Of a stretch of 37,657 bases of DNA, positions 11,899 through 37,509 are shown in pieces. Position 1 is the stretch's first letter. Every line of letters begins with the position of its first letter. This stretch comes from Actinotalea ferrariae. Lineage in GTDB: Bacteria; Actinomycetota; Actinomycetes; Actinomycetales; Cellulomonadaceae. Position numbers and translations under genes: made by a program. The notes under the pieces were generated by a model that saw only the letters and a list, made by a program, of their open reading frames with translations, was not told the DNA's origin and made no database searches. The DNA lies in NCBI RefSeq assembly GCF_019733465.1, contig NZ_JACVQL010000148.1:1-37657 (forward strand), given 5' to 3'.

Positions 11899-12585
11899 AT
11901 GACCAGCGAGGCCCGCATCCCCCCGACCGAGATCACCGGCGCGTACGGAGCCGTCGTGAAGCTCGCCTCCCGCCGCATGGTCGGTCACGTCCCCCGCTCG
12001 CTGGGCGTGCTGTGGCACCACCGCGCGGTCATGAAGGACGCCATGGGCGTCGGGCGCAAGATCGAGGGCTGGAAGGAGCTCGACCGGGACCTGGCGACGT
12101 ACGCGGTCATGGCGGCCGCCGCGACGATCGGCTGCTCCTTCTGCCTCGACCTCAACTACTTCATGTCGCGCGACCGCGGGCTCGACGAGGCGAAGGTGCG
12201 CGAGGTGCCTCGCTGGCGCGAGTCGTCCGAGTTCAGCCCGCGCGAGCGCAGGGTCATGGAGTACGCCGAGGCCGCGAGCGCGACGCCGCCCGCCGTGACC
12301 GACGAGCTGTCCGACGCCCTGCTGGCCGACCTCGGGCCCGCGGCGCTCGTGGAGCTCGCGGCACGCGTCGCGTTCATGAACATGTCGGCACGCATGAACG
12401 TCGCGCTCGGCATCCGCTCGGAGGAGTTCGCCGCGTCGTGCGGTTTGCCGCCGCTCGCGGCGTCGTCGGCCGGCTCGGGTGCCGGTGCCGGTGCCGGTGC
12501 CGGTGCCAGTGCGGGCACGGGTTCGGGTGCCCGTTCATCGGTCGGCTCGGGTGCCGCTTCGGATGCCGGTTCGCGTGCCCGGTAG
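11899..12585 (+). CDS. Carboxymuconolactone decarboxylase (CMD/AhpD-like) family protein
   Basis: A CMD-domain protein of 228 residues, probably a thiol redox or peroxidase-like enzyme rather than a true decarboxylase. The active-site pair is Cys79-Cys82 in GCSFCLDLNYFMSRDRGL. The preceding ATYAVMAAAATIG and the later VMEYAEAASATPPAVTDEL are typical of the longer CMD proteins linked to ECF41 sigma factors. The ATG at 11899 follows a GGAG site. Residues after about 188 form a Gly/Ala/Ser tail encoded by hexamer repeats and unlike the rest of the family. The TAG stop forms the first three bases of the sigma gene's -10 box. Co-regulation with the sigma factor is strongly suggested by the promoter and gene order. 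Confidence 0.88.
   Translation: MTSEARIPPTEITGAYGAVVKLASRRMVGHVPRSLGVLWHHRAVMKDAMGVGRKIEGWKELDRDLATYAVMAAAATIGCSFCLDLNYFMSRDRGLDEAKVREVPRWRESSEFSPRERRVMEYAEAASATPPAVTDELSDALLADLGPAALVELAARVAFMNMSARMNVALGIRSEEFAASCGLPPLAASSAGSGAGAGAGAGASAGTGSGARSSVGSGAASDAGSRAR
12478..12507 (+). repeat. Five GGTGCC hexamers in the CMD gene tail
   Basis: Five perfect in-frame copies of GGTGCC encode (Gly-Ala)5. Related GGTGCC-like units continue downstream. Six-base changes in copy number would keep the frame. Confidence 0.9.
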
Positions 12586-12588
12586 CGT
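12583..12588 (+). promoter_or_regulatory. -10 box TAGCGT for the ECF41 sigma gene
   Basis: TAGCGT includes the CMD stop codon and is followed by 7 bases and the GTG at 12596. It could give basal leaderless expression of the sigma factor independent of the upstream ECF41 promoter. Confidence 0.45.
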
Positions 12589-12595
12589 CGCGCGC

Positions 12596-13489
12596 GTGGC
12601 CAGCGTCCCGCGTGCCGACGACGACCCGTTCGTCCTGCACCGGCGCCTGCTGTTCACCGTCGCCTACGAGATGCTCGGCTCGGCCGCGGACGCCGAGGAC
12701 GTGCTCCAGGAGTCCTGGCTCCGGTGGTCCGCGGTCGACCGGTCCGAGGTGCACGAGCCGCGCGCCTACCTCGTGCGCGTCGTCACGCGGCAGGCGCTCA
12801 ACCACCTGCGCACGCTGGCGCGGCGTCGTGAGGACTACGTCGGCGAGTGGCTTCCTGAGCCGCTGCTCACCGGTCCCGACGTCGCGGCCGACGTCGAGCT
12901 CGCGGAGAGCCTGTCCATCGCGATGCTCACGGTCCTCGAGACGCTCGGGCCGGCGGAGCGCGCGGTGTTCGTGCTGCGCGAGGTCTTCGACGTGCCGTAC
13001 GGGGAGATCGCCGAGGCCGTCGGGAAGACGCCGGCCGCGGTCCGGCAGATCGCGCACCGGGCGAAGGAGCACGTCGCGGAGCGCCGTCCCCGGGTGCGCG
13101 TCCTGCGCGCCGAGCACGAGCGGGTGGTGGAACGGCTCGCGGCAGCGCTCAACTCGGGCGACGTGCAGGGCCTTCTCGACGTGATGGCGCCCGACGTCGT
13201 GGCGGTCGCGGACGGCGGCGGGAAGGTGCAGGGGGCGGCGCGGCGGCCCGTCACGGGTGCCGTGCGGCTCGTCCGGTACCTCGTCGGCGGGATGGCGAAG
13301 GTCCCCGGCGTGGTCCGCGCCGTCGTGACGCAGGTCAACGGCCACCCCGGGATCCGGATGGAGCTGGACGGGGAGCTCGTCGGCGTGGTCAGCGTCACCG
13401 TCGTCGACGGCCGTGTCAGCCGGGTCTACTCGGTCGCGAACCCCGACAAGCTCCGGGGGTTCGACGCGGAGGCCCGGCTCAGCCGGTGA
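12596..13489 (+). CDS. ECF41 (SigJ-type) RNA polymerase sigma factor with SnoaL-like C-terminal domain
   Basis: An extracytoplasmic-function sigma factor of 297 residues. Sigma region 2 includes LLFTVAYEMLGSAADAEDVLQESWLRW. Region 4 is LGPAERAVFVLREVFDVPYGEIAEAVGKTPAAVRQIAHRAKEHV. All three ECF41 signatures are present: YVGEWLPEPL in the linker (from Tyr81), DGGGK (206-210) and NPDKL (282-286). The SnoaL-like C-terminal extension takes the place of an anti-sigma factor and tunes activity. The preceding CMD gene and a matching promoter complete the standard ECF41 arrangement. The GTG at 12596 was chosen because homology begins there and a -10 box precedes it; the open frame extends further upstream only through the CMD gene. 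Confidence 0.95.
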   Translation: MASVPRADDDPFVLHRRLLFTVAYEMLGSAADAEDVLQESWLRWSAVDRSEVHEPRAYLVRVVTRQALNHLRTLARRREDYVGEWLPEPLLTGPDVAADVELAESLSIAMLTVLETLGPAERAVFVLREVFDVPYGEIAEAVGKTPAAVRQIAHRAKEHVAERRPRVRVLRAEHERVVERLAAALNSGDVQGLLDVMAPDVVAVADGGGKVQGAARRPVTGAVRLVRYLVGGMAKVPGVVRAVVTQVNGHPGIRMELDGELVGVVSVTVVDGRVSRVYSVANPDKLRGFDAEARLSR

Positions 13490-24493: not shown

Positions 24494-25165
24494 TCAGCGA
24501 CTCGCCCAGAGCAGGCCGCGCTCGATGACGCCGCGCAGCTCCGGGACGTCGAGGTCCGAGACGCGGTGCCCGGGCGTGCAGACGAAGACGCGGCCGCGGC
24601 CCCACGTGCGCGTCCAGATCGCAGGGCTGCGCACCGGCGCGGACCACGGGTCGTCCGGGTCCGCGCGCACCGTCGTCGTCGCCAGGACGTCGTTGAGCGA
24701 GTCGGTCGCGACCCAGTACTGCTCGGTCACGAGCGTGAGGGAGCCGAGGCCTCGGACCACCGGGTGGTCGGCCCGCCCCGGGACCACCTCGACCGTGTGC
24801 TCGACCAGGTCCCGCGGGTGGGCGAGGAAGACGCCGCCGGTGAGCTGGCCGTACTCGGGCGACGCCCGGAACGCGTCCACCACACCTCCGTGCCAGCCCG
24901 CGAAACCCGTGCCGGCGGCGACGGCGTCGCGCAGCCCGGTGAGCTCGTCGGGCAGGATCTCGCCCATCGTCCAGCTCTGCACCACGAGGTCCGTGCCGCG
25001 CATGAGCTCGGCGTCGGCGTAGACCTCGAGCGTGTCCTCGACCACGACGTCGTAGCCCGACTCCCGGAGGAACGGCAGGAACCGGTCCGTCGCCTCGACG
25101 GGGTCGTGGCCCTCCCAGCCGCCGCGGACGACCAGTGCCTGCTTGCTCTGTGCCTGCTCGCTCAC
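24494..25165 (-). CDS. ThuA-domain (trehalose utilisation) protein
   Basis: A 223-residue protein with the class I glutamine-amidotransferase-like ThuA fold. Visible motifs are ALVVRGGWEGHDPVEATDRFLPFLRESGYDVVVEDTLEVY, VQSWTMGEI, GFAGWHGGVVDAFR, the HPRDLVEHTVEVVPGRADHPVVRGL segment and VFVCTPGHRVSDLDVPELRGVIERGLLWA. ThuA is linked in rhizobia to trehalose breakdown through 3-keto sugars, with ThuB, a Gfo/Idh/MocA dehydrogenase. No catalytic Cys is seen at the amidotransferase elbow, as in the family. The GTG at 25165 forms a GTGA overlap with the ROK stop, so translation is coupled; the GTG at 25174 is less likely. Cytoplasmic. Confidence 0.88.
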   Translation of the reverse strand: MSEQAQSKQALVVRGGWEGHDPVEATDRFLPFLRESGYDVVVEDTLEVYADAELMRGTDLVVQSWTMGEILPDELTGLRDAVAAGTGFAGWHGGVVDAFRASPEYGQLTGGVFLAHPRDLVEHTVEVVPGRADHPVVRGLGSLTLVTEQYWVATDSLNDVLATTTVRADPDDPWSAPVRSPAIWTRTWGRGRVFVCTPGHRVSDLDVPELRGVIERGLLWASR

Positions 25166-26343
25166 TGGACCCACCCTTCGATCGCCTCCGGTGACAGCAC
25201 GTGCTCGACCGCCATCGCGCTCGCCCCCAGCACCCCGGCCCGGCCGCGTGTCCGGCTGGCCACGATGCGCAGGTGCTGGGTCGCCAGGGGGAGCGAGCGG
25301 CGGTAGACGACCTCGCGGATGCCCGCGAGCAGGTGCTCGCCGGCCTCCGCGAGATTCCCCCCGATGACGATGACCGAGGGGTTGAGCAGGCTCACCGCGG
25401 CCGCGAGGACGCCGCCGATGTCACGGCCCGCCTCGCGCACGGCGTGGCTCGCCCGCAGGTCACCGGCCCGCACGAGCGCGACGACGTCGGACGTCGACGC
25501 CGCCTCCACGCCCTGCTCGGACAGCACCGTGGCGATCGCCCGACCACTGGCCAGCGCCTCCAGGCAGCCCGTGTTGCCGCAGCGGCACAGCAGGTCCCGC
25601 CCGCCCGGCACCGCGATGTGCCCGAGGTCGCCCGCCGCGCCCTGCGCGCCCCGGCGCATCGTGCCGTCGCTGATCACGCCCGCACCGATGCCGGTCGCGA
25701 CCTTGACGAAGAGGAGGTGGTCCACCTCGGGGAACTCCGCGCGGTGCTCGCCCAGCGCCATGACGTTGACGTCGTTGTCCACGAGCACGGGGACGCCGAG
25801 GAGCCCGCGCACGATGCCAGGCACGTCGGTGTCGTCCCAGCCGGGCATGATCGGCGGGTTCGTGGGCCGTCCCGTGGCGTGGTCCACGGGCCCCGGCAGG
25901 CCGATCCCCACGCTGACGAGGTCGGACATCGACCGCCCGGCCTGGTCGACGAGCTTGCGACCCACGGCCGCCGCGCGTTCGAGCACCGGCCCCGGACCGT
26001 GGGCGATCGTGATCGGCTCCTGGTGCTCGGCGAGCACGGCCGAACCGAGGTCCGTGACGGCCAGGCGTGCGTGCGTGGCGCCGAGGTCGATCGCGAGCAC
26101 GATCCGTGCGCTCGGCTGGAACGCGAAGGTGGCGGGCGGGCGGCCTCCCGTGGACGTCGCCTCGCCCGCCGGTCCCACGAGTCCCAGCGCGAGGAGGTGG
26201 TCGATCCGCGCCGCGATCGTCGAGCGGGCCTGGCCGGTGACCTGGGCGAGCTCGGAGCGCGTGCGCGGACGGCCGTCACGGAGCAGCTGGAACATCTCGC
26301 CCGCACCCGTCGGCTTCACGGGGACCTTCGTCAGGGGATCCAT
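25162..26343 (-). CDS. ROK-family transcriptional regulator
   Basis: A NagC/XylR-type repressor of 393 residues. The N-terminal winged helix-turn-helix (about 15-65: LRDGRPRTRSELAQVTGQARSTIAARIDHLLALGLV) is followed by a sugar-kinase-like ROK domain: AIDLGATHARLAVTDL, then VGIGLPGPVDH, VLVDNDVNVMALGEHR, GDLGHIAV and the zinc motif CRCGNTGCLEALASG (Cys253/255/260). It should sense a sugar and control the divergent ABC-transporter operon. The ATG at 26343 (MDPLTKVPV) is preferred to one 22 codons upstream that would sit in the promoter region; TTCACT lies 7 bases before it. It is translationally coupled to the ThuA gene downstream. Confidence 0.9.
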   Translation of the reverse strand: MDPLTKVPVKPTGAGEMFQLLRDGRPRTRSELAQVTGQARSTIAARIDHLLALGLVGPAGEATSTGGRPPATFAFQPSARIVLAIDLGATHARLAVTDLGSAVLAEHQEPITIAHGPGPVLERAAAVGRKLVDQAGRSMSDLVSVGIGLPGPVDHATGRPTNPPIMPGWDDTDVPGIVRGLLGVPVLVDNDVNVMALGEHRAEFPEVDHLLFVKVATGIGAGVISDGTMRRGAQGAAGDLGHIAVPGGRDLLCRCGNTGCLEALASGRAIATVLSEQGVEAASTSDVVALVRAGDLRASHAVREAGRDIGGVLAAAVSLLNPSVIVIGGNLAEAGEHLLAGIREVVYRRSLPLATQHLRIVASRTRGRAGVLGASAMAVEHVLSPEAIEGWVQ

Positions 26344-26416
26344 CGGGGGCAGTGAAGCACACCCCCCTTGTGCACGTCGCGGTCCGTATGTGTGCCGAGA
26401 CAATTTCACCTTTTGC

Positions 26417-26453: not shown

Positions 26454-28016
26454 ATGGTCGATGACGACACCCGGGGGACAGCCCCGGCCGGACCGGCGAC
26501 GACGCCGGCCACGACGGGTGCACTGCTCGAGATGCAGGGCATCGTCAAGCACTTCCCCGGTGCGAAGGCCCTGGACGGCGTCGACCTCGACGTCCGCCCC
26601 GGAGAGGTGCACTGCCTGCTCGGCCAGAACGGGGCGGGCAAGTCGACCCTGATCAAGGTGCTCGCGGGCGCCCACCGGCCCGACGCCGGGACGATCACCT
26701 GGGAGGGCCGGCCCCTCGCGCTCGACGAGCCGGTCCAGTCCCTCCGCGCCGGCATCGCCACGATGTACCAGGAGCTCGACGTCGTCGACGGGCTCACGAT
26801 CGCGGAGAACGTCTTCCTCGGCCACGAGCTCGCCCGGGGCGGCTTCACGCAGCGCTCGGGGGCGGCGGCACGGACGCGTGAGCTCCTCGCCCGCCTCGGC
26901 CACGGCGACCTCCCGCCGAACCGCGAGGTCGGCCGCCTCTCGGCGGCCGAGAAGCAGGTCGTCAGCATGGCTCGGGCGCTCTCCCACGACGCCCGGCTCA
27001 TCGTCATGGACGAGCCGTCCGCCGTGCTCGACTCGGGGGAGGTCGAGAACCTCTTCCGCGTGGTCCGGCAGCTGACCTCCGACGGCGTGGCCGTCGTCTA
27101 CATCTCCCACCGCCTCGAGGAGATCCGGCGGATCGGCGATCGCATCACCGTCCTCAAGGACGGCCGGACGGTGGCCACGGGGCTGCCCGTCGCCTCGACC
27201 GCGACCGCGGACCTCATCCGCCTCATGACCGGCCGGTCCGTCGAGCAGGTCTTCCCGGCGCGCGCCACCGTGGCCTCGGACGCGCCGGTGCTGCTCGAGG
27301 TCGACGCCCTCGCCCTGCAGGGCGTGTTCGCCGACGTCTCGTTCGAGGTCCGCGCGGGGGAGGTCGTGGGGCTCGCCGGTCTCGTCGGGTCCGGCCGCTC
27401 CGAGATCCTCGAGACCGTCTACGGCGCCCGCCGCGCGACGTCCGGCCGGGTGCTGGTCGCAGGACGCGCCCTGCCGGCGGGATCCGTCGCCGCCGCCGTC
27501 CGCGCGGGCATCGGCCTCGCGCCGGAGGAGCGCAAGAGCCAGGGCCTGCTCCTCGACGAGCCCGTCTACCGCAACGTCACCCTCTCGACGTTCGCCCGGT
27601 ACGCGCGCGGCTCGCTCCTCGACGAGCGCGGGGAGCGCCGGGTCGCGCGCGAGCAGATCGAGGCGCTCGACGTGCGCCCGGCGGACCCCGAGCGCCACGC
27701 CCGCACGCTCTCGGGCGGCAACCAGCAGAAGGTCATGCTGGCGCGCTGGCTCGTCCACGGCTGCCGCGTCCTGCTCCTCGACGAGCCGACCCGCGGCGTC
27801 GACGTCGGCGCGCGCGCCGAGATCTACACACTCGTCCAGCGCCTGGCGGCGGCGGGCAACGCGGTCGTCGTCGTCTCGAGCGAGATCGAGGAGGTCCTCG
27901 CGCTCTCGCACCGGGTCCTCGTCGTGGCCGACGGCCGCATCGTGCACCAGGGCCCGGCCGACAGCATCGACGAGCACGCGGTGCTCGACCTCGTCATGGA
28001 AGGAAGTGCCGCGTGA
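26454..28016 (+). CDS. Sugar ABC transporter ATP-binding protein (RbsA/XylG type)
   Basis: A double-ATPase subunit of a CUT2-class sugar importer, 520 residues, at the cytoplasmic face of the membrane. In the first domain, Walker A is GQNGAGKST (57-65), the signature is LSAAEKQ (from 162) and Walker B is LIVMDEPS (Asp186). In the second, the P-loop is degenerate (LVGSGRSE), the signature is LSGGNQQK (from 419) and Walker B is LLLDEPTRGVDVG. This asymmetry is normal for RbsA. The start is ATG at 26454 with a leaderless-type promoter. The permease gene overlaps the stop by 4 bases. The substrate, probably a mono- or disaccharide-like compound, is not set by this subunit. Confidence 0.93.
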   Translation: MVDDDTRGTAPAGPATTPATTGALLEMQGIVKHFPGAKALDGVDLDVRPGEVHCLLGQNGAGKSTLIKVLAGAHRPDAGTITWEGRPLALDEPVQSLRAGIATMYQELDVVDGLTIAENVFLGHELARGGFTQRSGAAARTRELLARLGHGDLPPNREVGRLSAAEKQVVSMARALSHDARLIVMDEPSAVLDSGEVENLFRVVRQLTSDGVAVVYISHRLEEIRRIGDRITVLKDGRTVATGLPVASTATADLIRLMTGRSVEQVFPARATVASDAPVLLEVDALALQGVFADVSFEVRAGEVVGLAGLVGSGRSEILETVYGARRATSGRVLVAGRALPAGSVAAAVRAGIGLAPEERKSQGLLLDEPVYRNVTLSTFARYARGSLLDERGERRVAREQIEALDVRPADPERHARTLSGGNQQKVMLARWLVHGCRVLLLDEPTRGVDVGARAEIYTLVQRLAAAGNAVVVVSSEIEEVLALSHRVLVVADGRIVHQGPADSIDEHAVLDLVMEGSAA

Positions 28017-29122
28017 GCGAGTCCCTGCCCCCCTCGTTGGCCACCGGCGGCAGCGTGCCACCGGGTCCCGACGACCGCACGCCCCTGGCCCGCACCGCCG
28101 ACGACGGCGGGCACGGGACCGCCGCGCAGGCGGCGGCCGGCACCGGCCGCACAGGGCGCCGCGGGCTCCTGCACGGCGGCGTGGGCCGCAACCTCGGGCT
28201 CGTCGTCGCGCTCGTCGCCCTGTGCGTCGTCGGCGTCGTCACGGGCGGCGACCGCTTCGCGAGCCTCGACAACGTCATGACGATCCTGCGCCTCGCCGCG
28301 GTCATCGGCGTCCTCAGCATCGGCATGACGTTCGTCATCACCGGCGGCGGCATCGACCTGTCTGTCGGCTCCGTCCTCGGGCTCGCGAGCATCTGGGCCT
28401 CGACCGTCGCGACCCAGACGATGGCCGAGGACGTGCACTGGGTCGTCATGGTCCTCACCGCCCTCGCGGTGGGCACCGCGGCCGGACTCGTCAACGGCGT
28501 GCTCATCGCCTACGGGAAGGTGGTGGCCTTCATCGCGACCCTGGCGATGATGGTCGCGGCGCGCGGGCTCGCGGAGATGATCGCCAACCGGCAGACGCAG
28601 ATCGTCGACGTCGACACGTTCCTCGACGCGGTGCGCGGCGACGTGCTCGGCATCCCGAAGATCGTCTGGGTCTTCGTCCTCGTCGCCGTCGCCGGCTGGC
28701 TGCTGCTCAACCGGACCACCTTCGGCCGCCGGACGCTCGCCGTCGGCGGCAACCCGGAGGCGGCCCGCCTCGCCGGGATCAAGGTCCGCCGGCACACGAT
28801 GTACCTCTACGCCCTCGCCGGCCTGACCGCCGGCATCGCCGCGGTGATGATGCTCGGGCGCACCGGCTCGGGCTCCTCGACGCACGGCATGCTCTACGAG
28901 CTCGACGCCATCGCGGCCGTCGTCGTCGGCGGCACGCTCCTGGCGGGCGGCCGCGGCACGATCATCGGCACCGTTCTCGGCGTCGTCCTCTTCTCGACGC
29001 TCACCAACGTCTTCATCATCAACAACCTGTCGACGTCGGCCCAGTCCGTCGCCAAGGGCGTGATCATCGTCGCCGCCGTGCTCCTGCAGCAGCGTCTCGC
29101 CGCGCGGTCCCGCGGCGCCTGA
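28013..29122 (+). CDS. Sugar ABC transporter permease (RbsC type)
   Basis: A membrane permease of 369 residues in the BPD_transp_2 family. After a long hydrophilic N-terminus (about 55 residues), about nine to ten hydrophobic segments follow, starting LGLVVALVALCVVGVVTG. Conserved family motifs are GMTFVITGGGIDLSVGSVLGLAS, GLVNGVLIAYGKVVAFIATLAMM, FGRRTLAVGGNPEAARLAGI and the AVVVGGTLLAGGRGTIIGT region. GTG at 28013 overlaps the ATPase stop (GTGA). It forms the transmembrane pore with the ATPase upstream and receives sugar from the lipoprotein encoded downstream. Confidence 0.93.
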   Translation: MSESLPPSLATGGSVPPGPDDRTPLARTADDGGHGTAAQAAAGTGRTGRRGLLHGGVGRNLGLVVALVALCVVGVVTGGDRFASLDNVMTILRLAAVIGVLSIGMTFVITGGGIDLSVGSVLGLASIWASTVATQTMAEDVHWVVMVLTALAVGTAAGLVNGVLIAYGKVVAFIATLAMMVAARGLAEMIANRQTQIVDVDTFLDAVRGDVLGIPKIVWVFVLVAVAGWLLLNRTTFGRRTLAVGGNPEAARLAGIKVRRHTMYLYALAGLTAGIAAVMMLGRTGSGSSTHGMLYELDAIAAVVVGGTLLAGGRGTIIGTVLGVVLFSTLTNVFIINNLSTSAQSVAKGVIIVAAVLLQQRLAARSRGA

Positions 29123-29244
29123 CCCGCTCGCGCGCGCCCCTGCCGTCCCGCTACCCAACCCTCAGCCCCGCCCGGCCGCCCGGCCGAGCGACCCCTCGTC
29201 CACTCACCCGCACAGCACCACCCGACCGTCCGAGGAGGACACCG

Positions 29245-30300
29245 ATGTCCGCACACCGCTCCGGCCCCCGCCGCCGGCTCGTCCAGGCAGGCGCCATCGC
29301 CGCCGGCCTGACGCTGCTCGTGGGCTGCACGTCCAACGCCCCCGCCGAGGAGGACGACTCCTCGCAGGAGCAGGACGACGGCGCCACCTCCGCGAACGAC
29401 GACTCGGGCGACACCGTCACGATCGGCTTCTCGGCGCCCGCCGCCGACCACGGGTGGATGGGCGCGATCACGTCGTCCGCACGCGCCGAGGCGGAGAAGT
29501 ACGACGACGTCGAGCTCCTCGTCGCGGAGGGCACCAACGACGTCAACCTGCAGATCAGCCAGGTCGAGCAGTTCATCAACGACGGCGTCGACGCCATCGT
29601 CCTGCTGCCGTTCGACGGCGCGGCGCTGACCGACGTCGCGACCCGGGCGATGGAGGAGGGGATCGTCGTCGTCAACGTCGACCGCGAGTTCTCGAGCCCG
29701 TTCGCGGCCCGCACGACGATCCTCGGCGACAACTACGGCATGGGCGTCAGCGCCGGGACGTACATCTGCGAGCAGCTCGGCGGTGACGAGGACGCCGTCG
29801 TCGCCGAGATCGCGGGCATCGACTCGCTGCCGCTGACGCAGGACCGCAGCCAGGGCTTCGCGGACGCGCTCTCCGACTGCGGCCTCGAGGTCGAGAACCG
29901 CGTCGCCGCCGACTTCACGGTCCAGGGCGGCCAGGCGGCCGCGGCCAACCTGCTCCAGGCGGCGCCGCAGATCGACGCCCTGTGGAACCACGACGACGAC
30001 CAGGGCGTGGGCGTCCTCGCGGCGATCGAGGAGGCCGGGCGGGACGAGTTCATCATGGTCGGCGGCGCCGGTTCGCGGAGCGTCATGGAGTCGATCCAGG
30101 CCGGTGACTCGGTGCTCCAGGCGACCGTCATCTACCCGTCGACGCAGGCCGCCGACGGCATCCGCCTCGCGCGGCTCATCGCGCAGGACAAGGCCCTGAG
30201 CGACCTCGTCGAGGTCGAGGTCCCGCGGACCATCCAGCTCTACGCGCCCGTCGTGACGGCGGACAACGTCGAGCAGTACCTGCCGACCGCCTTCGAGTGA
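29245..30300 (+). CDS. Sugar ABC transporter substrate-binding lipoprotein
   Basis: An RbsB-like periplasmic-binding protein, 351 residues, tethered outside the membrane. The signal peptide has RRRLVQAG, a hydrophobic core and a lipobox LLVGC, with lipidated Cys28. An acidic linker (about 30-52) precedes the Peripla_BP_4 domain: TIGFSAPAADHGWMGAITSSAR, FINDGVDAIVLLPFDGAAL, VVVNVDREF, LWNHDDDQGVGVLAAI and GDSVLQATVIYPSTQAADGIRLA. It binds a sugar-like ligand not identifiable from sequence. A GAGGAGG site lies just before the ATG. It is separated from the permease by 122 bp, and a hairpin follows. Confidence 0.93.
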   Translation: MSAHRSGPRRRLVQAGAIAAGLTLLVGCTSNAPAEEDDSSQEQDDGATSANDDSGDTVTIGFSAPAADHGWMGAITSSARAEAEKYDDVELLVAEGTNDVNLQISQVEQFINDGVDAIVLLPFDGAALTDVATRAMEEGIVVVNVDREFSSPFAARTTILGDNYGMGVSAGTYICEQLGGDEDAVVAEIAGIDSLPLTQDRSQGFADALSDCGLEVENRVAADFTVQGGQAAAANLLQAAPQIDALWNHDDDQGVGVLAAIEEAGRDEFIMVGGAGSRSVMESIQAGDSVLQATVIYPSTQAADGIRLARLIAQDKALSDLVEVEVPRTIQLYAPVVTADNVEQYLPTAFE

Positions 30301-30409: not shown

Positions 30410-31678
30410 ATGGAGCAGCACGAGGCGCACCAGTCGCAGGGCCGGCTGGGCGTGGGCATGATCGGGTACGCGTTCATGGGCGCGGCCCACTCCCAGGCCT
30501 GGCGCGTGGCACCGCGCTTCTTCGACCTGCCGCTGACCCCGGAGATGACCGTGGTCGCCGGCCGGACGCGGCCCGCGGTGGAGGAGGCGGCGGCCCGGCT
30601 GGGCTGGGCGTCCGTCGAGACGGACTGGCGCGCGGTCCTGCGCCGGGACGACGTCGACCTCGTCGACGTCTGCACGCCGGGCGACACGCACGCCGAGATC
30701 GCGATCGCGGCGCTCGAGGCCGGCAAGCACGTCCTGTGCGAGAAGCCGCTCGCCAACTCCGTCGCCGAGGCGGAGGACATGGTGCGCGCCGCCGACGCCG
30801 CCGCCGCCCGCGGCGTGCGCGCGATGGTCGGGTTCACCTACCGGCGGGTCCCGGCCGTCGCCCTCGCGCGGCAGCTCGTCGCCGAGGGGCGACTCGGCAC
30901 GGTCCGCCACGTCAGGGCCCAGTACCTGCAGGACTGGATCGCCGACCCGCAGGCCCCGCTGTCCTGGCGGCTCGACAGGGCGACCGCCGGCTCGGGGGCG
31001 CTCGGCGACATCGGCGCGCACATCGTCGACCTCACGCAGTTCATCACCGGTGAGCGCATCACGGGCGTCGGCGGACTGCTGGAGACGTTCGTCAAGGAGC
31101 GTCCGCTGGCGACCGAGTTCTCGGGCCTCCACGGCGCCGCCGGCTCGGGCACCGGACCGGTCACCGTGGACGACGCCGCGCTGTTCCTCGCCCGGTTCGA
31201 GGGCGGCGCCGTCGGCTCGTTCGAGGCGACGCGGTTCGCCTGGGGCCGCAAGAACGCGATCCGGATCGAGATCAACGGCTCCCTCGGCTCCCTCGCCTTC
31301 GACTTCGAGGACATGAACGTCCTGCACCTCTTCGACGCCACGGAGGACGCGCGCGTCGCGGGCTTCCGCCGCATCGTCGTCACCGAGCCCGAGCACCCCT
31401 ACATCGGTGCCTGGTGGCCCGCCGGCCACGGGCTGGGCTACGAGCACGGGTTCGTCCACCAGGTCGTCGACCTCGTCCGCGCGATCGGCGCCGGGGAGCA
31501 GCCGACGCCGTCGTTCGCGGACGGACTGCAGGTCCAGCGCGTGCTCGACGCCGTCGAGCGCAGCGCCGGCGACGAGAGCCGATGGACCTCCGTCGCCACC
31601 GGTGCGTCGCCGCACGCACCGTCCCCGACCGCCGCCCCGATCCACCAGGTCGCCACGACCGGCACGAAGGAGAGCTGA
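30410..31678 (+). CDS. Gfo/Idh/MocA-family oxidoreductase
   Basis: An NAD(P)-dependent sugar dehydrogenase of 422 residues. The Rossmann motif is GVGMIGYAFMG (14-24), with VDVCTPGDTHAEIAIAALEAGKHVLCEKPLA carrying the catalytic Lys112 of the EKP motif. The C-terminal domain has GSGALGDIGAHIVDLTQFITG and GYEHGFVHQVVDLVRAI. Relatives such as ThuB oxidise C3 of glycosides to 3-keto sugars, which is the role suggested here by its neighbours; myo-inositol or another sugar oxidation is an alternative. The start is ATG at 30410 with GGAG upstream. The isomerase gene follows with only 3 bases between. Confidence 0.9.
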   Translation: MEQHEAHQSQGRLGVGMIGYAFMGAAHSQAWRVAPRFFDLPLTPEMTVVAGRTRPAVEEAAARLGWASVETDWRAVLRRDDVDLVDVCTPGDTHAEIAIAALEAGKHVLCEKPLANSVAEAEDMVRAADAAAARGVRAMVGFTYRRVPAVALARQLVAEGRLGTVRHVRAQYLQDWIADPQAPLSWRLDRATAGSGALGDIGAHIVDLTQFITGERITGVGGLLETFVKERPLATEFSGLHGAAGSGTGPVTVDDAALFLARFEGGAVGSFEATRFAWGRKNAIRIEINGSLGSLAFDFEDMNVLHLFDATEDARVAGFRRIVVTEPEHPYIGAWWPAGHGLGYEHGFVHQVVDLVRAIGAGEQPTPSFADGLQVQRVLDAVERSAGDESRWTSVATGASPHAPSPTAAPIHQVATTGTKES

Positions 31679-31681
31679 CGC

Positions 31682-32686
31682 ATGGCCCGTCCGATCACCC
31701 TGTTCACCGGCCAGTGGGCCGACCTGCCGCTCGAGGAGGTCGCGCGCCTCGCGTCCGGCTGGGGCTACGACGGCCTCGAGCTGGCCTGCTGGGGGGACCA
31801 CCTCGACGTCGCCCGCGCCGCGGAGGACGACGCGTACGTCCGTGACCGGCTCGACCTGCTCGAGCGTCACGGCCTGCAGCTGTTCGCGATCTCCAACCAC
31901 CTGTCCGGCCAGGCGGTGTGCGACGACCCGATCGACCAGCGCCACCGCGACATGCTCACCGACCGTGTGTGGGGCGACGGCGACCCCGAGGGCGTCCGGC
32001 AGCGGGCGGCGCGCGAGATGGAGCTCACCGCGCGTGCGGCCGCGCGGCTCGGCGTGCGGACCGTCGTCGGGTTCACCGGGTCGTCGATCTGGAAGTACGT
32101 GGCGATGTTCCCGCCCGCGTCCGCCGAGCTCGTCGACGCCGGCTACCGGGACTTCGCCGACCGCTGGAACCCCGTCCTCGACGTCTTCGACGAGGTGGGG
32201 GTGCGCTTCGCGCACGAGGTCCACCCGAGCGAGATCGCGTACGACTACTGGACGACCGTCCGGACGCTCGAGGCGATCGGCCACCGCGAGGCGTTCGGCC
32301 TCAACTGGGACCCGAGCCACTTCGTCTGGCAGGACCTGGACCCCGTGGGCTTCATGTGGGACTTCCGCGAGCGGATCTACCACGTGGACTGCAAGGACGC
32401 GAAGCGCCGGGTGGGCAACGGCCGCAACGGCCGCCTCGGGTCGCACCTGCCGTGGGCCGACCCGCGTCGCGGCTGGGACTTCGTGTCGACCGGTCACGGC
32501 GACGTCCCGTGGGAGGACTCGTTCCGGATGCTCAACACCATCGGCTACGACGGCCCCATCTCGGTCGAGTGGGAGGACGCCGGGATGGACCGGCTCGTCG
32601 GCGCCCCCGAGGCCCTGGAGTTCGTCCGGCGGCTCGCGTTCGCGCCGCCCACGGCGTCCTTCGACGCCGCGTTCAGCACGCGCTGA
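31682..32686 (+). CDS. Sugar phosphate isomerase/epimerase family (AP endonuclease 2 TIM barrel)
   Basis: A xylose-isomerase-like TIM-barrel enzyme, 334 residues, cytoplasmic. Likely metal ligands are Glu179 (FAHEVHPSE), Asp210 (LNWDPSHF), His234 (YHVDCKD) and Glu296 (SVEWEDAG). The N-terminal part ([36 protein letters not shown]) is typical of the family. Members next to Gfo/Idh/MocA dehydrogenases isomerise or eliminate from 3-keto sugars or inositol-type products; the exact reaction is unknown. The Shine-Dalgarno AAGGAG lies within the end of the preceding gene, so the two are tightly linked. A strong hairpin follows. Confidence 0.9.
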
Positions 32687-32836: not shown

Positions 32837-35242
32837 GTGCGTCAACGAACGGTGCACCGCCCGGCAGGCCTCGCCGGCCTGGTCGGTCTGTCCCTGCTCG
32901 GCTCCGTGGTGACGACGGCGGCGTTGCCGACCGCCGCGCACGCCGCCGAGCTGCCGCCCCAGCAGCAGGGCGTCACCCTGCGGACGTACACGCTGGGGTC
33001 GCCACCGCAGGCCCTCTGCGAGATGCGGCCCGGCACCACGCCCAACGTCGACAAGCTCATGCCGGCGATCGACTGGACGACCCACGAGCAGTTCGGCGGC
33101 ACGGACGACTTCCGCACGGACGTCCTCGCCAACCTCCACGTCCCGTCCGACGGCGAGTACGCCTTCCGCCTCATCAGCGACGACGGCTCGCGCCTGCTGG
33201 TCGACGAGCAGCTCGTCGTCGACCACGACGGCCTGCACGAGGCCACGCCGAAGGACGGCGTCGCCCAGCTGTCGGCCGGTCACCACGCGCTCCGGGTCGA
33301 GTACTTCGAGGCGGGGTTCGACCAGGTGCTGCGCCTCGAGTGGCGCACGCCCGGCGCCGACGACTTCGTGCTCGTGCCCGAGTCCGCGCTCAGCACCGAG
33401 CGCGACGTCGTCCGCGTGACGGCCCCGGGGACCAAGTACTGCGCCGGGGACACCGACACCCCGGGCGATGGCCTGCGCCTCGACGCGGTGCACCCGGGCT
33501 ACACCCTCACCGACCTCCTGCCGGAGGGCTTCGAGCCCATGGTCTCGGCCCTCGACTGGACCGCGGACGGCGAGCTCGTCCTCGTCACCTCGGGCTCGGT
33601 GAGCCCGTCCGGGCCGGTGCCCGACCCGGAGCCGGGCGAGGTGTTCGTCCTCGGCGGCGTGACGGGGGAGACCAGCGCCGACCAGGTGACGGTCACGAAG
33701 GTCGCCACCGGCCTGCTCAACCCCATGGGCGTCGCGGTCGTCGACGGCTCGATCTACGTCTCCGAGCGCGACCGGCTGACCGAGCTCATGCCCGACGTCG
33801 ACGGTGACGGGCTCCTCGAGCACCGCACGGTGGCCGAGTGGCCGTACGGCGGGACGTTCCACGAGTTCGCCTTCGGTCTGCTGCACGACGAGGAGAACTT
33901 CTACGTGACGCTCTCGGTCGCGATCGACAACGGCGGCGCGACCACGGACCCGCAGCCGGCGCCGAACCGCGGGACGAGCATCACGATCGACCGCGAGACC
34001 GGTGAGGTCAGCTACGTCGCGGGAGGGCTCCGGACGCCCAACGGCCTCGGCTGGGGACCGCAGGGCGAGCTGTTCGTCATGGACAACCAGGGTGCGTGGC
34101 TGCCGTCCTCGAAGCTGCTGCACATCGAGCAGGACCGGTTCTTCAACCACTACAACAACCCGGCCGGGCCCTTCGACACCCAGCCGGTGACCAAGCCCGT
34201 GCTGTGGCTGCCGCAGAACGAGATCGCGAACTCGCCGAGCAACCCCGTGCTGCTCGAGGAGGGGCCGTTCGCCGGGCAGATGCTCTTCGGCGACGTCACC
34301 TACGGCGGGCTGCAGCGGGCGTTCCTCGAGCAGGTCGACGGCGCGTACCAGGGCGCCGCCTTCCGGCACACCGCCGGCCTGCAGGCGGGCGTCAACCGCA
34401 CCGTGATCGGGCCGGACGGCGCGATCTACGTCGGCGGCATCGGCGAGGCCGGCAACTGGAGCGAGACGGGCAAGCTCGACTACGGGCTCCAGAAGCTCAC
34501 GCCGAACGGCGCGGACGCGTTCGACATGACCTCGATGAGCGTCACTGAGGGACGGGTTCGAGGTCCGGTACACCCAGCCGCTCTCCGAGGAGACCGCGCA
34601 GCGGATCAGTGCGGACGCGGCAGCGGGCTACCGGGTCCAGCAGTGGCGGTACGTGCCCACGCAGCAGTACGGCGGCCCGAAGGTCGACGAGGAGGTGCTC
34701 GTCGTCTCCGCGGCCGACGTCTCGGCCGACCGGCGGACCGTGCGCATCACCATCGACGGGCTCAAGCCCGACCGGGTCGTCCACCTGCGCTCGCCGCGCC
34801 CCTTCACCGACGCGAGCGGTGCCGAGCTGTGGAGCACCGAGGCCTGGTACACGCTCAACGCCATCCCCGGCTACGAGGCGCCCGACGACCTCGGGTACCA
34901 CGAGGCCGAGGAGGCCCTGATGCTGGGCGGCGCGAGCATCGCGTCCGACCACAGCGGGTACTCGGGCTCGGGCTTCACCGCGGGCCTGCAGCAGCCCGGG
35001 GCGTCCGTGACGTTCACGACGCAGGTCGACGAGGCGGGGACGGTCCCGGTCCACGTGCGCTACGCCAACGGGCCGAACCCCTTCCAGGGCACCAAGAGCA
35101 TGTCCCTGTACGTCAACGGCTCCCGCGTGGGACCCGTCGAGTTCCCGAGCACGGGGGACTGGCGGACGTGGAGCACCCTGACGCTCGACGTGGCGCTGCA
35201 GCAGGGCACGAACACCATCGGGCTGCGGTACGACGACGGTGA
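32837..35242 (+). CDS. N-terminal ORF: PA14 plus sugar-dehydrogenase-like beta-propeller
   Basis: The frame as read encodes 801 residues, but only the first 571 or so look genuine; the rest, after about 34549, is the wrong frame of the downstream domains and is Arg-rich. A GTG start with AAGGAGG just upstream begins a signal peptide (MRQRTVHRP then LAGLVGLSLLGSVVTT, cleavage near AHA-AE). The PA14 domain has LHVPSDGEYAFRLISDDGSRLLVDEQLVVDHDG. The propeller begins LLPEGFEPMVSALDWTADGELVL, passes LRTPNGLGWGPQGELFVMDNQG and NPVLLEEGPFAGQMLFGDVTYGGLQRAF, and ends IGPDGAIYVGGIGEAGNW. It resembles secreted glucose/sorbosone-dehydrogenase-like proteins. A role in extracellular carbohydrate binding or oxidation is inferred. 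Confidence 0.8.
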   Translation: MRQRTVHRPAGLAGLVGLSLLGSVVTTAALPTAAHAAELPPQQQGVTLRTYTLGSPPQALCEMRPGTTPNVDKLMPAIDWTTHEQFGGTDDFRTDVLANLHVPSDGEYAFRLISDDGSRLLVDEQLVVDHDGLHEATPKDGVAQLSAGHHALRVEYFEAGFDQVLRLEWRTPGADDFVLVPESALSTERDVVRVTAPGTKYCAGDTDTPGDGLRLDAVHPGYTLTDLLPEGFEPMVSALDWTADGELVLVTSGSVSPSGPVPDPEPGEVFVLGGVTGETSADQVTVTKVATGLLNPMGVAVVDGSIYVSERDRLTELMPDVDGDGLLEHRTVAEWPYGGTFHEFAFGLLHDEENFYVTLSVAIDNGGATTDPQPAPNRGTSITIDRETGEVSYVAGGLRTPNGLGWGPQGELFVMDNQGAWLPSSKLLHIEQDRFFNHYNNPAGPFDTQPVTKPVLWLPQNEIANSPSNPVLLEEGPFAGQMLFGDVTYGGLQRAFLEQVDGAYQGAAFRHTAGLQAGVNRTVIGPDGAIYVGGIGEAGNWSETGKLDYGLQKLTPNGADAFDMTSMSVTEGRVRGPVHPAALRGDRAADQCGRGSGLPGPAVAVRAHAAVRRPEGRRGGARRLRGRRLGRPADRAHHHRRAQARPGRPPALAAPLHRRERCRAVEHRGLVHAQRHPRLRGARRPRVPRGRGGPDAGRREHRVRPQRVLGLGLHRGPAAARGVRDVHDAGRRGGDGPGPRALRQRAEPLPGHQEHVPVRQRLPRGTRRVPEHGGLADVEHPDARRGAAAGHEHHRAAVRRR
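34548..34551 (+). other. Frameshift site (one extra base)
   Basis: GAG-G-GAC: dropping one G joins ...SVTE to DGFEV. The upstream frame in the downstream phase has a stop at 34536, so the shift must lie between 34539 and about 34557. Confidence 0.75.
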
Positions 35243-36995
35243 CGACGGGAACATCAACGTCGACGTCGTGCGGGTGGGCGCCGAGCCGGACATCTGCGCA
35301 CCGAGCACCCCGGAGGACGGCTACACCGCGCTCTTCGACGGCACCCTGGAGAGCCTGGGCGACTGGCGGCTCGCGGGCGCGGGCTCGTTCGGGCGGCAGG
35401 CCGACTGCAGCCTGCGCACGAGCGGCGGGCTCGGCCTGCTCTGGTACACCGCCCAGGAGTTCGCCGAGTACAGCCTCAAGCTGGACTGGAAGCTCGTGAA
35501 GGACGACAACGGCGGCGTGTTCGTCGGGTTCCCGAACCCCGGCGAGGACCCGTGGGTCGCCGTCGACCAGGGCTACGAGATCCAGATCGACGCGACCGAC
35601 GCACCCGACCGCACGACCGGCGCGATCTACACCTTCCAGGGCGCCGACCCCGACGCCGTCGCCGAGGCGCTGAACCCGGTGGGGCAGTGGAACGCGTACG
35701 AGATCGAGGTGTCGGGGGAGACGATCCGCGTCCACCTCAACGGCGTGCTGGTCAACGAGTTCACCAGCACCGACCCGGCGCGCGACCTCGCGGGCTTGGT
35801 CGGCGTGCAGAACCACGGCGCCGGCGAGGCGGTGTCCTACCGCGACATCCGCATCCGCAGCGGTGCGTCGCCCGTGGTCTCGTACGAGCTCGAGGACGGC
35901 GTGCTCGACGGCGGTGCGGAGGTCGGCACCGAGCACGCCGGCTACTCGGGCCGGGGCTACGTGCAGGGCCTGGGGGCCGTCGGCGCGGGCGTCAGCGCGA
36001 CCGTCGACGTCGACGCGGCGGGCACCTACCCGGTGACCCTGCGCTACGCGAACGGGCCGCATCCGTTCGAAGGTCCCAAGACGGTCTCGCTCCACGTGGA
36101 CGGCGCCGACCGGGGGCAGGTGACGCTGCCGAGCACGGGCACGTGGGCGACGTGGTCGACCGTCACGGTCGACATCCCGCTGCAGGCGGGGGAGAGCACG
36201 GTGACGCTGCGCCACGAGGAGGGGGACGACGGCCACGTGAACCTCGACCGGCTCCGGCTGGGCGACCCGGTCGTCGCGACGCCACCCGTCACGACGGCGA
36301 CCGTGTCGCCCGAGCCGGTGGGCGGCTGGTACGCCGTCGAGCCCAGGGTGACGCTGGTCGCCGAGGACGACCAGGGGGTCGCGTCGACCGAGTACCGGCT
36401 GGACGACGGCGACTGGCTCGCGTACGAGGGCCCGTTCGTCGTCGGCGGTCAGGGCGAGCGCACGGTGTCCTTCCGCTCGACCGACACCGCGGGGACCGTC
36501 GAGGAGGCGTCGAGCGTCGTGCTCGCGGTCGACACGGTCGCGCCCCAGGTCGCCTTCGCGGGCAACGCCGGGAGGTACACGGTCGCCGACGACGTCACGA
36601 TCACGTGCGCCGCGCAGGACCCGTCGCCCGGCTCGGGCATCGCTGCGTCGACGTGCTCCGACGTGACCGGGCCGGCGTGGCGGCACGGCCTGGGCACGCA
36701 CGCGCTCGCAGCCTCGGCGACCGACGTCGCCGGGAACGTGGGGGAGGCGTCGACGGCGTTCACCGTCACCGTGACGTACGCGTCGCTGCGGTCGCTGGTG
36801 AACGACTTCAGCAGCAGCTGGGTCGCGACGGCGGCCATGAACGTCACGCTGACGCTCGCCGAGCACGTCCGCATCGACGCGGTGCGTCACGTGCTGCTGT
36901 CGTCGTTCGAGCACCAGGTCGCACGCCAGACGGGCCGGGCGTTCACGGTCGAGGAGGCCGGGGTCCTGCGGTCGCTGGTGGCCGCACTGCGCTGA
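34653..36995 (+). CDS. C-terminal ORF: CBM6/35-like, DUF1080 (3-keto-disaccharide hydrolase) and repeat domains
   Basis: GTG at 34653 is only the first formal start in this frame; coding sequence in the same frame reaches back to about 34550, so independent translation is doubtful. A short strand-rich region (VRITIDGLKPDRVVHLRS) closes the propeller part. A CBM6/35-like domain follows (YHEAEEA, HSGYSGSGFTAG, PVHVRYANGPNPF, VDVVRVG). The DUF1080 domain (35320-35865) has DGYTALFDGTLESLGDWRL, NGGVFVGFPNPGEDPW, GYEIQIDATD, TGAIYTFQG and QWNAYEIEVSGETIRVHLNG. A second CBM6/35-like copy is at about 35880-36264. OmpL47-like and Cys-paired Bap/HYR-like repeats lead to a C-terminus resembling FIMAH. 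DUF1080 members cleave 3-keto glycosides. Confidence 0.8.
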   Translation: MPTQQYGGPKVDEEVLVVSAADVSADRRTVRITIDGLKPDRVVHLRSPRPFTDASGAELWSTEAWYTLNAIPGYEAPDDLGYHEAEEALMLGGASIASDHSGYSGSGFTAGLQQPGASVTFTTQVDEAGTVPVHVRYANGPNPFQGTKSMSLYVNGSRVGPVEFPSTGDWRTWSTLTLDVALQQGTNTIGLRYDDGDDGNINVDVVRVGAEPDICAPSTPEDGYTALFDGTLESLGDWRLAGAGSFGRQADCSLRTSGGLGLLWYTAQEFAEYSLKLDWKLVKDDNGGVFVGFPNPGEDPWVAVDQGYEIQIDATDAPDRTTGAIYTFQGADPDAVAEALNPVGQWNAYEIEVSGETIRVHLNGVLVNEFTSTDPARDLAGLVGVQNHGAGEAVSYRDIRIRSGASPVVSYELEDGVLDGGAEVGTEHAGYSGRGYVQGLGAVGAGVSATVDVDAAGTYPVTLRYANGPHPFEGPKTVSLHVDGADRGQVTLPSTGTWATWSTVTVDIPLQAGESTVTLRHEEGDDGHVNLDRLRLGDPVVATPPVTTATVSPEPVGGWYAVEPRVTLVAEDDQGVASTEYRLDDGDWLAYEGPFVVGGQGERTVSFRSTDTAGTVEEASSVVLAVDTVAPQVAFAGNAGRYTVADDVTITCAAQDPSPGSGIAASTCSDVTGPAWRHGLGTHALAASATDVAGNVGEASTAFTVTVTYASLRSLVNDFSSSWVATAAMNVTLTLAEHVRIDAVRHVLLSSFEHQVARQTGRAFTVEEAGVLRSLVAALR

Positions 36996-37080: not shown

Positions 37081-37509
37081 ATGATCTCGAGGGACCTCGC
37101 CAGTGACCTGCGCGACGCCGGCCTGCAGTGGCGACCCACGGCCGGGGACCGGTTCGTCATCCCGCAGCCCGAGCTCGACGGCGAGCTCTTCACGCTCAGC
37201 GAGATGACGATCGAGGCGCGCGAGTACCCGACCGGCACCATCCTCGGCTTCAACGGCACCACGGAGTGGGCGCTCGACTCGGTCGCCCAGGACGACGCGC
37301 TGTGGATGCCGCGCGAGGACCAGCTGCGCGACCTGCTCGGCGGGACCTTCCGCTCGCTCGAGGGTCCGGCCGACGGCCGCGACGGCTTCCGCGTCACGAC
37401 CGCTCCCGTGGTCGGTGAGACGACGTTCGAGGCCCTCACGGCGGCCGACGCCTACGGCCACGCGGTCCTGGCCCTGGTCCGCCACGCCCTCCTCGACGTC
37501 GACGCCTGA
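37081..37509 (+). CDS. Conserved actinobacterial protein, often labelled pilus assembly protein CpaE
   Basis: A 142-residue cytoplasmic protein without signal peptide or membrane span. It starts MISRDLASDLRDAGLQWRPTAGDRFVIP, then FTLSEMTIEAREYPTGTILGFNGTTEWALDSVAQDDALWMPREDQLRDLLGG. This pattern (FNGTTEWALDSV, WxPREDQLRxLLG) is common in actinobacteria, where automatic annotation calls it CpaE; it lacks the ATPase and receiver features of real CpaE, so that name is probably a transfer error. I cannot assign a function. It stands alone between a double hairpin and a C-rich tract. Confidence 0.8.
   Translation: MISRDLASDLRDAGLQWRPTAGDRFVIPQPELDGELFTLSEMTIEAREYPTGTILGFNGTTEWALDSVAQDDALWMPREDQLRDLLGGTFRSLEGPADGRDGFRVTTAPVVGETTFEALTAADAYGHAVLALVRHALLDVDA

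Follow-up and report, generated by a model that had tools for sequence, protein, structure and literature searches.

The stretch of DNA analysed here, which we call the window, consists of 37,657 nucleotides of Actinotalea ferrariae (contig NZ_JACVQL010000148.1, positions 1 to 37,657) and carries, at positions 32837 to 36995, a gene whose domains comprise a PA14 domain, a beta-propeller, carbohydrate-binding modules (CBMs) and a DUF1080 domain. We consider it probable (about 0.6) that this gene specifies a secreted enzyme that would cleave 3-keto-glycosides and feed the adjoining operon, and whose propeller may supply the oxidation. Its nearest relatives are found in Actinotalea soli (L014), Actinotalea sp. 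C106 (L015) and Cellulomonas cellasea (L016). The features of the gene, all on the plus strand, are the following:

32837-34549, plus: first half of the gene (frame of 32837), with a signal-like N-terminus, PA14 and a six-bladed-type propeller
32963-33367, plus: PA14 domain, residues 43-177 of the first half (PF07691, 62.3 bits, cut-off 24)
33449-34549, plus: propeller, with a fold akin to soluble aldose sugar dehydrogenases (model of L015, Foldseek, VIA-align, profile-profile match to PF07995 enzymes)
34546-34556, plus: frameshift, one extra base relative to L014, L015 and L016 (DNA comparison)
34554-36995, plus: second half of the gene (frame of 34653)
34554-34883, plus: C-terminal domain belonging to the propeller unit (conserved across the 36 aligned relatives)
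34908-35240, plus: first CBM6/35 module (CBM_6 and CBM_35 profiles; motifs HSGYSG, RYANGP)
35319-35858, plus: DUF1080 / 3-keto-disaccharide hydrolase domain (PF06439)
35880-36260, plus: second CBM6/35 module (CBM_6 and CBM_35 profiles; motifs HAGYSG, RYANGP)
36345-36527, plus: OmpL47-type domain (NF047446, 70.7 bits, cut-off 40)

All the modules named in the preliminary description of this DNA, namely PA14, propeller, CBM, DUF1080, a second CBM and an OmpL47-type repeat region, are present in that order, as judged from Pfam and NCBIfam matches and, for the propeller, from the structure model of L015. PF06439 (3keto-disac_hyd/DUF1080) is matched with 114.9-118.6 bits (cut-off 26.8) over positions 1-187 of the 187 of the profile, and it has no other match in the Actinotalea ferrariae genome. 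The CBM_6 and CBM_35 profiles each match two stretches, with 87.8 and 85.9 bits, and pass their Pfam cut-offs; the motifs HSGYSG/HAGYSG and RYANGP (twice) occur in the sequence as described. The N-terminus, judged by eye, resembles a signal peptide. No C-terminal LPXTG anchor was found in the joined protein, whose sole LPxTG-like string is internal.

The same description assumed a single polypeptide of 1385 residues. The single chain holds for the relatives, where one open reading frame (ORF) is the rule; in the window the halves lie in different frames, and the 1385-residue protein is a read-through across them. The listed ORFs cover 32837-35242 and 34653-36995, their meaningful parts being 32837-34549 and 34554-36995. 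One surplus base, at about 34548-34553, is absent from L014, L015 and L016; it sits in a G-rich stretch, adjoining a single third codon position that is neither G nor C. Third-codon GC content is 0.90-1.00 in each 60-codon block of both halves, and the ratio of nonsynonymous to synonymous substitution rates (dN/dS) against the three nearest relatives is 0.16-0.20 in the first half and 0.26-0.27 in the second; both halves have therefore been under selection. The frameshift may be an assembly error. That the gene is instead a real pseudogene in this strain falls somewhat short of an even chance: the position of the surplus base and the other members of the genus that manage without the gene speak for it, as does a homologous gene that is broken too (L041), whereas the low dN/dS retained in both halves and the fragmentation of the source assembly (426 contigs) speak for an error. 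The broken homologue lies at 5801-9290 of L041, in the complete genome of Nocardiopsis eucommiae, and is interrupted inside the propeller. A programmed +1 frameshift that joins the two frames would suit their overlap and the selection on both; we rejected it as almost certainly wrong, because L014, L015 and L016 lack the extra base and encode one frame. A distant blastn search with the frameshift region for plasmid relatives gave no match. With the interrupting base in place, this strain may fail to make the full-length product.

When species genomes were searched with the second half of the gene, 521 stretches matched, of which the best 80 were kept for the family counts. PA14, propeller, C-terminal domain, CBM and DUF1080 lie within one ORF in 79 of these 80 loci, L041 being the exception; four of the 79 (L018, L022, L036, L040) run to a contig end. 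The final region matches PF06439 in all 79 and in the window (80 of 80), and the DUF1080 residues N, E-x-Q, Y and W are invariant in 80 of 80 rows. Since these loci had been selected through the second half, a search with the propeller alone was added; among 396 genomes of the phylum it found 9, the window's included, with 9 loci outside the window. CBM and DUF1080 follow the propeller in the same frame in eight of these nine, while the ninth (L097, 259-3270) joins PA14 and propeller to a ricin-type lectin and has neither CBM6/35 nor PF06439. The order PA14-propeller-CBM-DUF1080 is a widely conserved unit, and the halves are not always encoded as separate proteins, a case that the preliminary description had counted against itself. 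The exact order of the window is rarer: the form with second CBM and OmpL47, among those examined, occurs only in the window, two other Actinotalea and Cellulomonas cellasea. Within the genus the full protein family is present in 3 of 19 genomes, those of the window, G006 and G015. Among the papers searched, none on this protein type was found, which is no proof that none exists.

The secreted gene is the last of a same-strand operon, preceded by Rbs-type importer, Gfo/Idh/MocA and hydratase-like genes. These neighbours are:

25162-26409, minus: ROK-family regulator, divergent (PF00480)
26454-28016, plus: Rbs-type ATP-binding protein with two ABC_tran stretches (PF00005)
28013-29122, plus: Rbs-type permease (PF02653)
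29155-30300, plus: Rbs-type sugar-binding protein of an ABC importer (PF13407)
30410-31678, plus: Gfo/Idh/MocA oxidoreductase, related to levoglucosan dehydrogenase (Pfam, NCBIfam and PDB matches)
31682-32686, plus: AP_endonuc_2 TIM barrel, homologue of 2-hydroxy-3-keto-glucal hydratase (PF01261; 8ro4, 2zds)
37081-37509, plus: small gene with no Pfam match, directly after the operon where the site is empty

The hydratase-like protein matches 8ro4 over residues 9-322 with 138.6 bits (E 2.7e-39) and 2zds with 575.1 bits. The Gfo protein matches 4h3v with 642.8 bits and 6a3f with 322.3 bits, and stays below the NCBIfam equivalog cut-off for levoglucosan dehydrogenase (383.9 against 650 bits). The hydratase-like gene is present in 9 of the 19 genus genomes. 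In three of these (G007, G009, G005) the operon gives way within about 75-240 bases to the counterpart of 37081-37509, and the secreted gene is absent; the small gene is conserved beside the operon in five other genus genomes. G002 has in the same slot a 1110-residue PF07995-PKD-CBM6-OmpL47 protein, followed by two eliminase-like ORFs. The empty sites and this replacement indicate that the operon can lack the secreted part at its end or carry another in its place. In G016 and G008 the hydratase-like gene has other surroundings. In G008 (L189, 6227-9230) Gfo-type, eliminase-like and hydratase-like genes stand in a row, as in an operon known from Agrobacterium.

Glycosides can also be cleaved by way of a 3-keto intermediate, a route described only recently as an alternative to glycosidases of the ordinary kind, and a Nature study of 2024 reportedly deals with an alternative glycan breakdown pathway in Bacteroides. 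The Agrobacterium operon, in the portion of PMC10628242 that treats it, encodes an eliminase, a putative hydratase and a Gfo oxidoreductase that turn 3-keto-glycosides into glucose, the order of the route being oxidation, elimination, hydration and reduction. From the domain fusions and the operon, cleavage of 3-keto-glycosides is the best-supported role of the DUF1080 part in the window, and the enzymatic steps that we infer would run as follows. The CBMs would tether the secreted protein to carbohydrate outside the cell, where the DUF1080 domain would cleave glycosides bearing a 3-keto group. The released 3-keto sugar, as such or dehydrated, would enter through the Rbs-type importer; the hydratase-like TIM barrel encoded next door would then hydrate it, and the Gfo/Idh/MocA oxidoreductase would reduce it towards glucose. 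The likeliest source of the 3-keto group would be the propeller, which could instead only bind the substrate or perform other chemistry. The keto-sugar hydrolase domain of the preliminary description is in keeping with this context, as the hydratase-like and Gfo neighbours, together with the lyase-like fusions described below, point to a putative 3-keto-sugar chemistry.

The association extends beyond the genus. Of 148 genomes of the class, 45 encode the hydratase-like protein, at 50 places in all, and 40 of the 50 regions were taken (the others being the window's own, second copies, cases at contig ends or regions not chosen). A PF07995-type propeller (11), a DUF1080 domain (11) or an eliminase-like gene (13) is found in 22 of the 40, a count with no random-region control, and in 21 such a gene lies within 6 kb on the same strand; a Gfo gene is near in 25 and Rbs genes in 19. 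In four Streptomyces-like genomes (L171, L175, L176, L178) the same operon ends in a single ORF that joins a PF07995 propeller to a DUF1080 domain of the window's type (type I, defined below). Its Pfam order in L175 is GSDH-PKD-CBM6-ThuA-DUF1080, whereas L172 has adjacent ORFs for GSDH-PKD-CBM6 and ThuA-DUF1080, either separate genes or one that is broken. The DUF1080 domains of L171, L172 and L175 fall within type I in the DUF1080 tree, from which row L162 was dropped because its motif was not located.

In four of the 80 loci (L020, L021, L029, where it occurs twice, and L036, where it is cut by the contig end) the secreted chain extends into an AP_endonuc_2 TIM barrel. The model of the L020 barrel (predicted local distance difference test score, pLDDT, 79.9) is nearest to the 3-keto-beta-glucopyranoside-1,2-lyases AL1 and BT1 (8tcr, 8tcd, 8tct; Z 25.2-25.4), followed by AtOGE (8bvk, Z 22.6) and by other isomerases (20.8); in sequence it matches 8tct with E 1.2e-17 and 8bvk with E 8.3e-15. 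The five aligned barrels keep His-x-His (HNH) and SSH/TSH/SAH-type motifs, and for AtOGE the part of PMC10628242 concerned with it describes the His-x-His motif and catalytic roles. The fused lyase-like barrel is not found in the window's protein. In L029 (9582-11207) a single secreted chain carries two 3-keto-lyase-like barrels in tandem and terminates with an SLH-type region.

Several observations weigh against a secreted 3-keto-glycoside-cleaving enzyme that feeds the operon. Besides the window, the hydratase-like gene lies near only 3 of the 80 loci (L014, L015, L025), the rest having other neighbours; a family-wide conserved neighbourhood, sought in the 80 loci, was not found beyond these three, and no neighbour cluster exceeded 13 loci. 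Conversely, 18 of the 40 hydratase regions are without propeller, DUF1080 or eliminase-like gene, and the window's own propeller type occurs in none of the 40. With identities of 28-34%, the eliminase-like matches in these regions may represent TIM barrels of another kind, and the gene of the window is itself frameshifted. Finally, DUF1080 need not require a 3-keto substrate: in the section of PMC9007349 at hand the DUF1080 protein THTE_1561 is called an endo-xanthanase/lichenase, and DUF1080 proteins are proposed for the xanthan backbone in the corresponding part of PMC5673643. An ordinary endo-glycosidase that involves no keto sugar is nevertheless decidedly unlikely here, the hydratase-like and Gfo neighbours, the eliminase-like fusions and the ThuA-DUF1080 proteins of the same operon slot speaking against it.

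Whether the propeller could supply the oxidation depends on its fold and its residues. It passes no Pfam or NCBIfam cut-off, PF07995 included. The structure model was made from L015, whose propeller is 90% identical to that of the window, and the AlphaFold2 model of its propeller and C-terminal domain has a pLDDT of 89.2 and a predicted template modelling score (pTM) of 0.90. In Foldseek and VIA-align comparisons the six best structural rows are 2ism, 3a9g, 3das, 7cgz, 7cdy and 2g8s (Z 27.5-25.5), all of them sugar dehydrogenases or so annotated, and the subsequent rows are 1qbi (Z 23.4), an engineered Diels-Alderase (23.3), SMP-30 (about 23) and DFPase (about 22-23). The modelled fold is a six-bladed propeller closest to those of pyrroloquinoline quinone (PQQ) aldose dehydrogenases, and the sugar-dehydrogenase-like propeller of the preliminary description has stood in this respect. 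A profile-profile comparison with 20 PF07995 sequences gave Prob 97.5 and E 4.9e-12. In a profile search of the PDB the propeller matched designed Pizza propellers and PDZ domains, which were taken as composition matches, and 2ism with E 0.63.

In soluble glucose dehydrogenase (sGDH) we take His144 to be the catalytic His, Arg228 a PQQ-binding Arg, and Asn229, Arg406 and Arg408 the other PQQ ligands. At the aligned positions, derived from the profile alignment and not from superposition, the His and the first Arg are kept in 36 of 36 sequences each; the Asn is replaced by Thr, one Arg by Gly and the other by Asn, Ser or Thr (36 of 36 in each case), and the DELN motif is absent from the family (0 of 36). 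The PF07995 comparison set has the His, the Arg, the Asn and D-E-x-N in 20 of 20 sequences and the last two Arg in 13, the two-Arg test being weak because seven lack both. A canonical PQQ enzyme was not accepted, since the aligned ligands other than the His and one Arg are missing, but was not rejected outright either, given the profile-based positions and the seven PF07995 sequences that lack the two Arg; with the His and one Arg kept and the others lost, the propeller is a distant relative of the PF07995 enzymes whose site is probably a different one. Many other polar residues do not vary among the 36 sequences (H138, D212, N213, Q214, H234, N261, D282, Y285 and N336 in L015 numbering), which argues for a working pocket; at the sequence level this is not the bare propeller that the preliminary description had set against its own proposal. 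The joined protein has no CxxCH haem motif, and the window's propeller misses the cut-offs of the haem propellers of Planctomycetes-Verrucomicrobia-Chlamydiae type (DUF7133, PF23500, 15.7 against 27; TIGR02604, 23.7 against 122.2), while that of L097 passes DUF7133 (32.6 against 27).

If the propeller were a C3 glycoside oxidase, one secreted chain would both oxidise and cleave a glycoside. The modelled fold, with all later rows at Z 23.4 or less, the profile match to the PF07995 enzymes and the aligned His and Arg are consistent with this, as are two distinct propeller types, each joined to type I DUF1080, and L097, whose propeller next to no PF06439 suggests that it acts on its own. Moreover, PF13618 had no match in the Actinotalea ferrariae genome (its control was positive in 2 genomes) and GMC a single partial match, so that no LacABC-type oxidase was found in the genome. 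The lost Asn, two Arg (weak as that test is) and DELN and the lack of a CxxCH motif stand against an oxidase, which we regard as rather doubtful. A search of the genome for PqqC gave no match, and its control gave none either. Quite possible, though on the lesser side of even, is a propeller without redox function that binds sugar or performs lactonase- or lyase-like chemistry beside DUF1080. SMP-30/gluconolactonase, DFPase and the engineered Diels-Alderase come close behind the dehydrogenases, the PQQ ligands besides the His and one Arg are lost, and the invariant polar residues could build another site; against this, the six best structural rows are all sugar dehydrogenases or annotated so, and no lactonase family rises above its Pfam cut-off. 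Of the secreted 3-keto-glycoside-cleaving enzyme there is a fuller version, which we put forward as speculative and on balance unlikely. The secreted chain would oxidise the glycoside at C3, at an uncharacterised cofactor site of the propeller, and cleave it through its own DUF1080 or, in some relatives, through a 3-keto-glucoside-lyase module, and it would be the interchangeable last gene on an intracellular hydratase-reductase operon.

Two further PF07995-like proteins are encoded in the same genome. Contig C6 (L142, 1841-5752) has a large secreted protein with a PF07995 propeller, PKD and a C-terminal PA14 (Pfam on the overlapping L135), and contig C416 (L120) a stand-alone soluble aldose dehydrogenase that matches PQQ-bound 3das with 321 bits. 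By motif inspection, Arg-x-Arg before GPDG was not seen in the PF07995 propellers of the same operon slot where GPDG was found, the stand-alone L120 being the exception.

The catalytic and binding modules have a history of their own. By identity to the window's DUF1080 (alignment A4) the relatives fall into type I, with 37 loci (53-88%), and type II, with 42 (25-33%), whereas identity to the window's propeller is 56-91% for the type I loci and 61-67% for type II. A single branch of the scaffold tree (Shimodaira-Hasegawa-like approximate likelihood ratio test, SH-aLRT, 96) sets type II apart from the rest, and under midpoint rooting type II lies between two type I groups; this tree (37 rows for 79 loci) and the DUF1080 tree are quick ones with SH-aLRT support only. 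The pattern is consistent with a single exchange of the catalytic module. L137 (4978-11376), one chain of 2133 residues, has both DUF1080 types followed by glucodextranase-type C-terminal domains, so that one of two modules may have been lost instead of exchanged. The two propeller types paired with DUF1080 and the swap of DUF1080 types on one scaffold show interchangeable parts.

The two CBMs of the window, which had been described as an internal duplication, are 51% identical to each other; in the CBM tree (L092 type left out; deep branches weak, 70) each clusters with the CBM of the same position in L014, L015 and L016. The duplication is hence not recent but older than implied, and a recent internal duplication is unsupported. 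The tail is variable: the second CBM and OmpL47 occur in L014-L016, extra CBMs in Demequina (L025, L030, L033) and long tails in the homologues of Georgenia and Serinibacter.

Compared with known systems, the closest arrangement is that of the Streptomyces-like L175, in which one chain likewise unites propeller, CBM and type I DUF1080 at the end of the same operon (ROK, Rbs importer, Gfo, hydratase-like gene), whereas its propeller passes PF07995 and belongs to another subfamily, and it has PKD and ThuA but no PA14. The window resembles the soluble PQQ aldose sugar dehydrogenases (3das, 2ism, 3a9g, 2g8s) in the six-bladed fold and the aligned His and Arg, and differs from them by the missing Asn, two Arg and DELN, a score below the PF07995 cut-off and the fusion to other modules. 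The similarity to DUF7133 (PF23500) and TIGR02604 propellers is weak; the relative L097 passes the DUF7133 cut-off, and the window, without CxxCH, stays below both. With the AtOGE/AtHYD/Gfo operon, as presented in the relevant part of PMC10628242, it shares a hydratase-type TIM barrel, a Gfo oxidoreductase and the same four-step logic, but there the eliminase is a separate TIM barrel and the oxidase is GlycDH, while in the window the putative cleaver, DUF1080, is part of a secreted protein. BT2157 and CCNA_01705 also have PF06439, and the portion of PMC9007349 devoted to them gives 3-keto disaccharides as their proposed or demonstrated substrates; they are stand-alone, single-domain periplasmic proteins with no propeller or CBM.

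If this family does cleave glycosides by the 3-keto route outside the cell, through a module attached to a propeller and CBMs, the route would reach into the secreted enzymes of actinobacteria, and where the 3-keto group comes from would become testable within one protein. Elsewhere in the window, 12479-13489 encodes an ordinary sigma-70 family factor with a C-terminal SnoaL-like domain.

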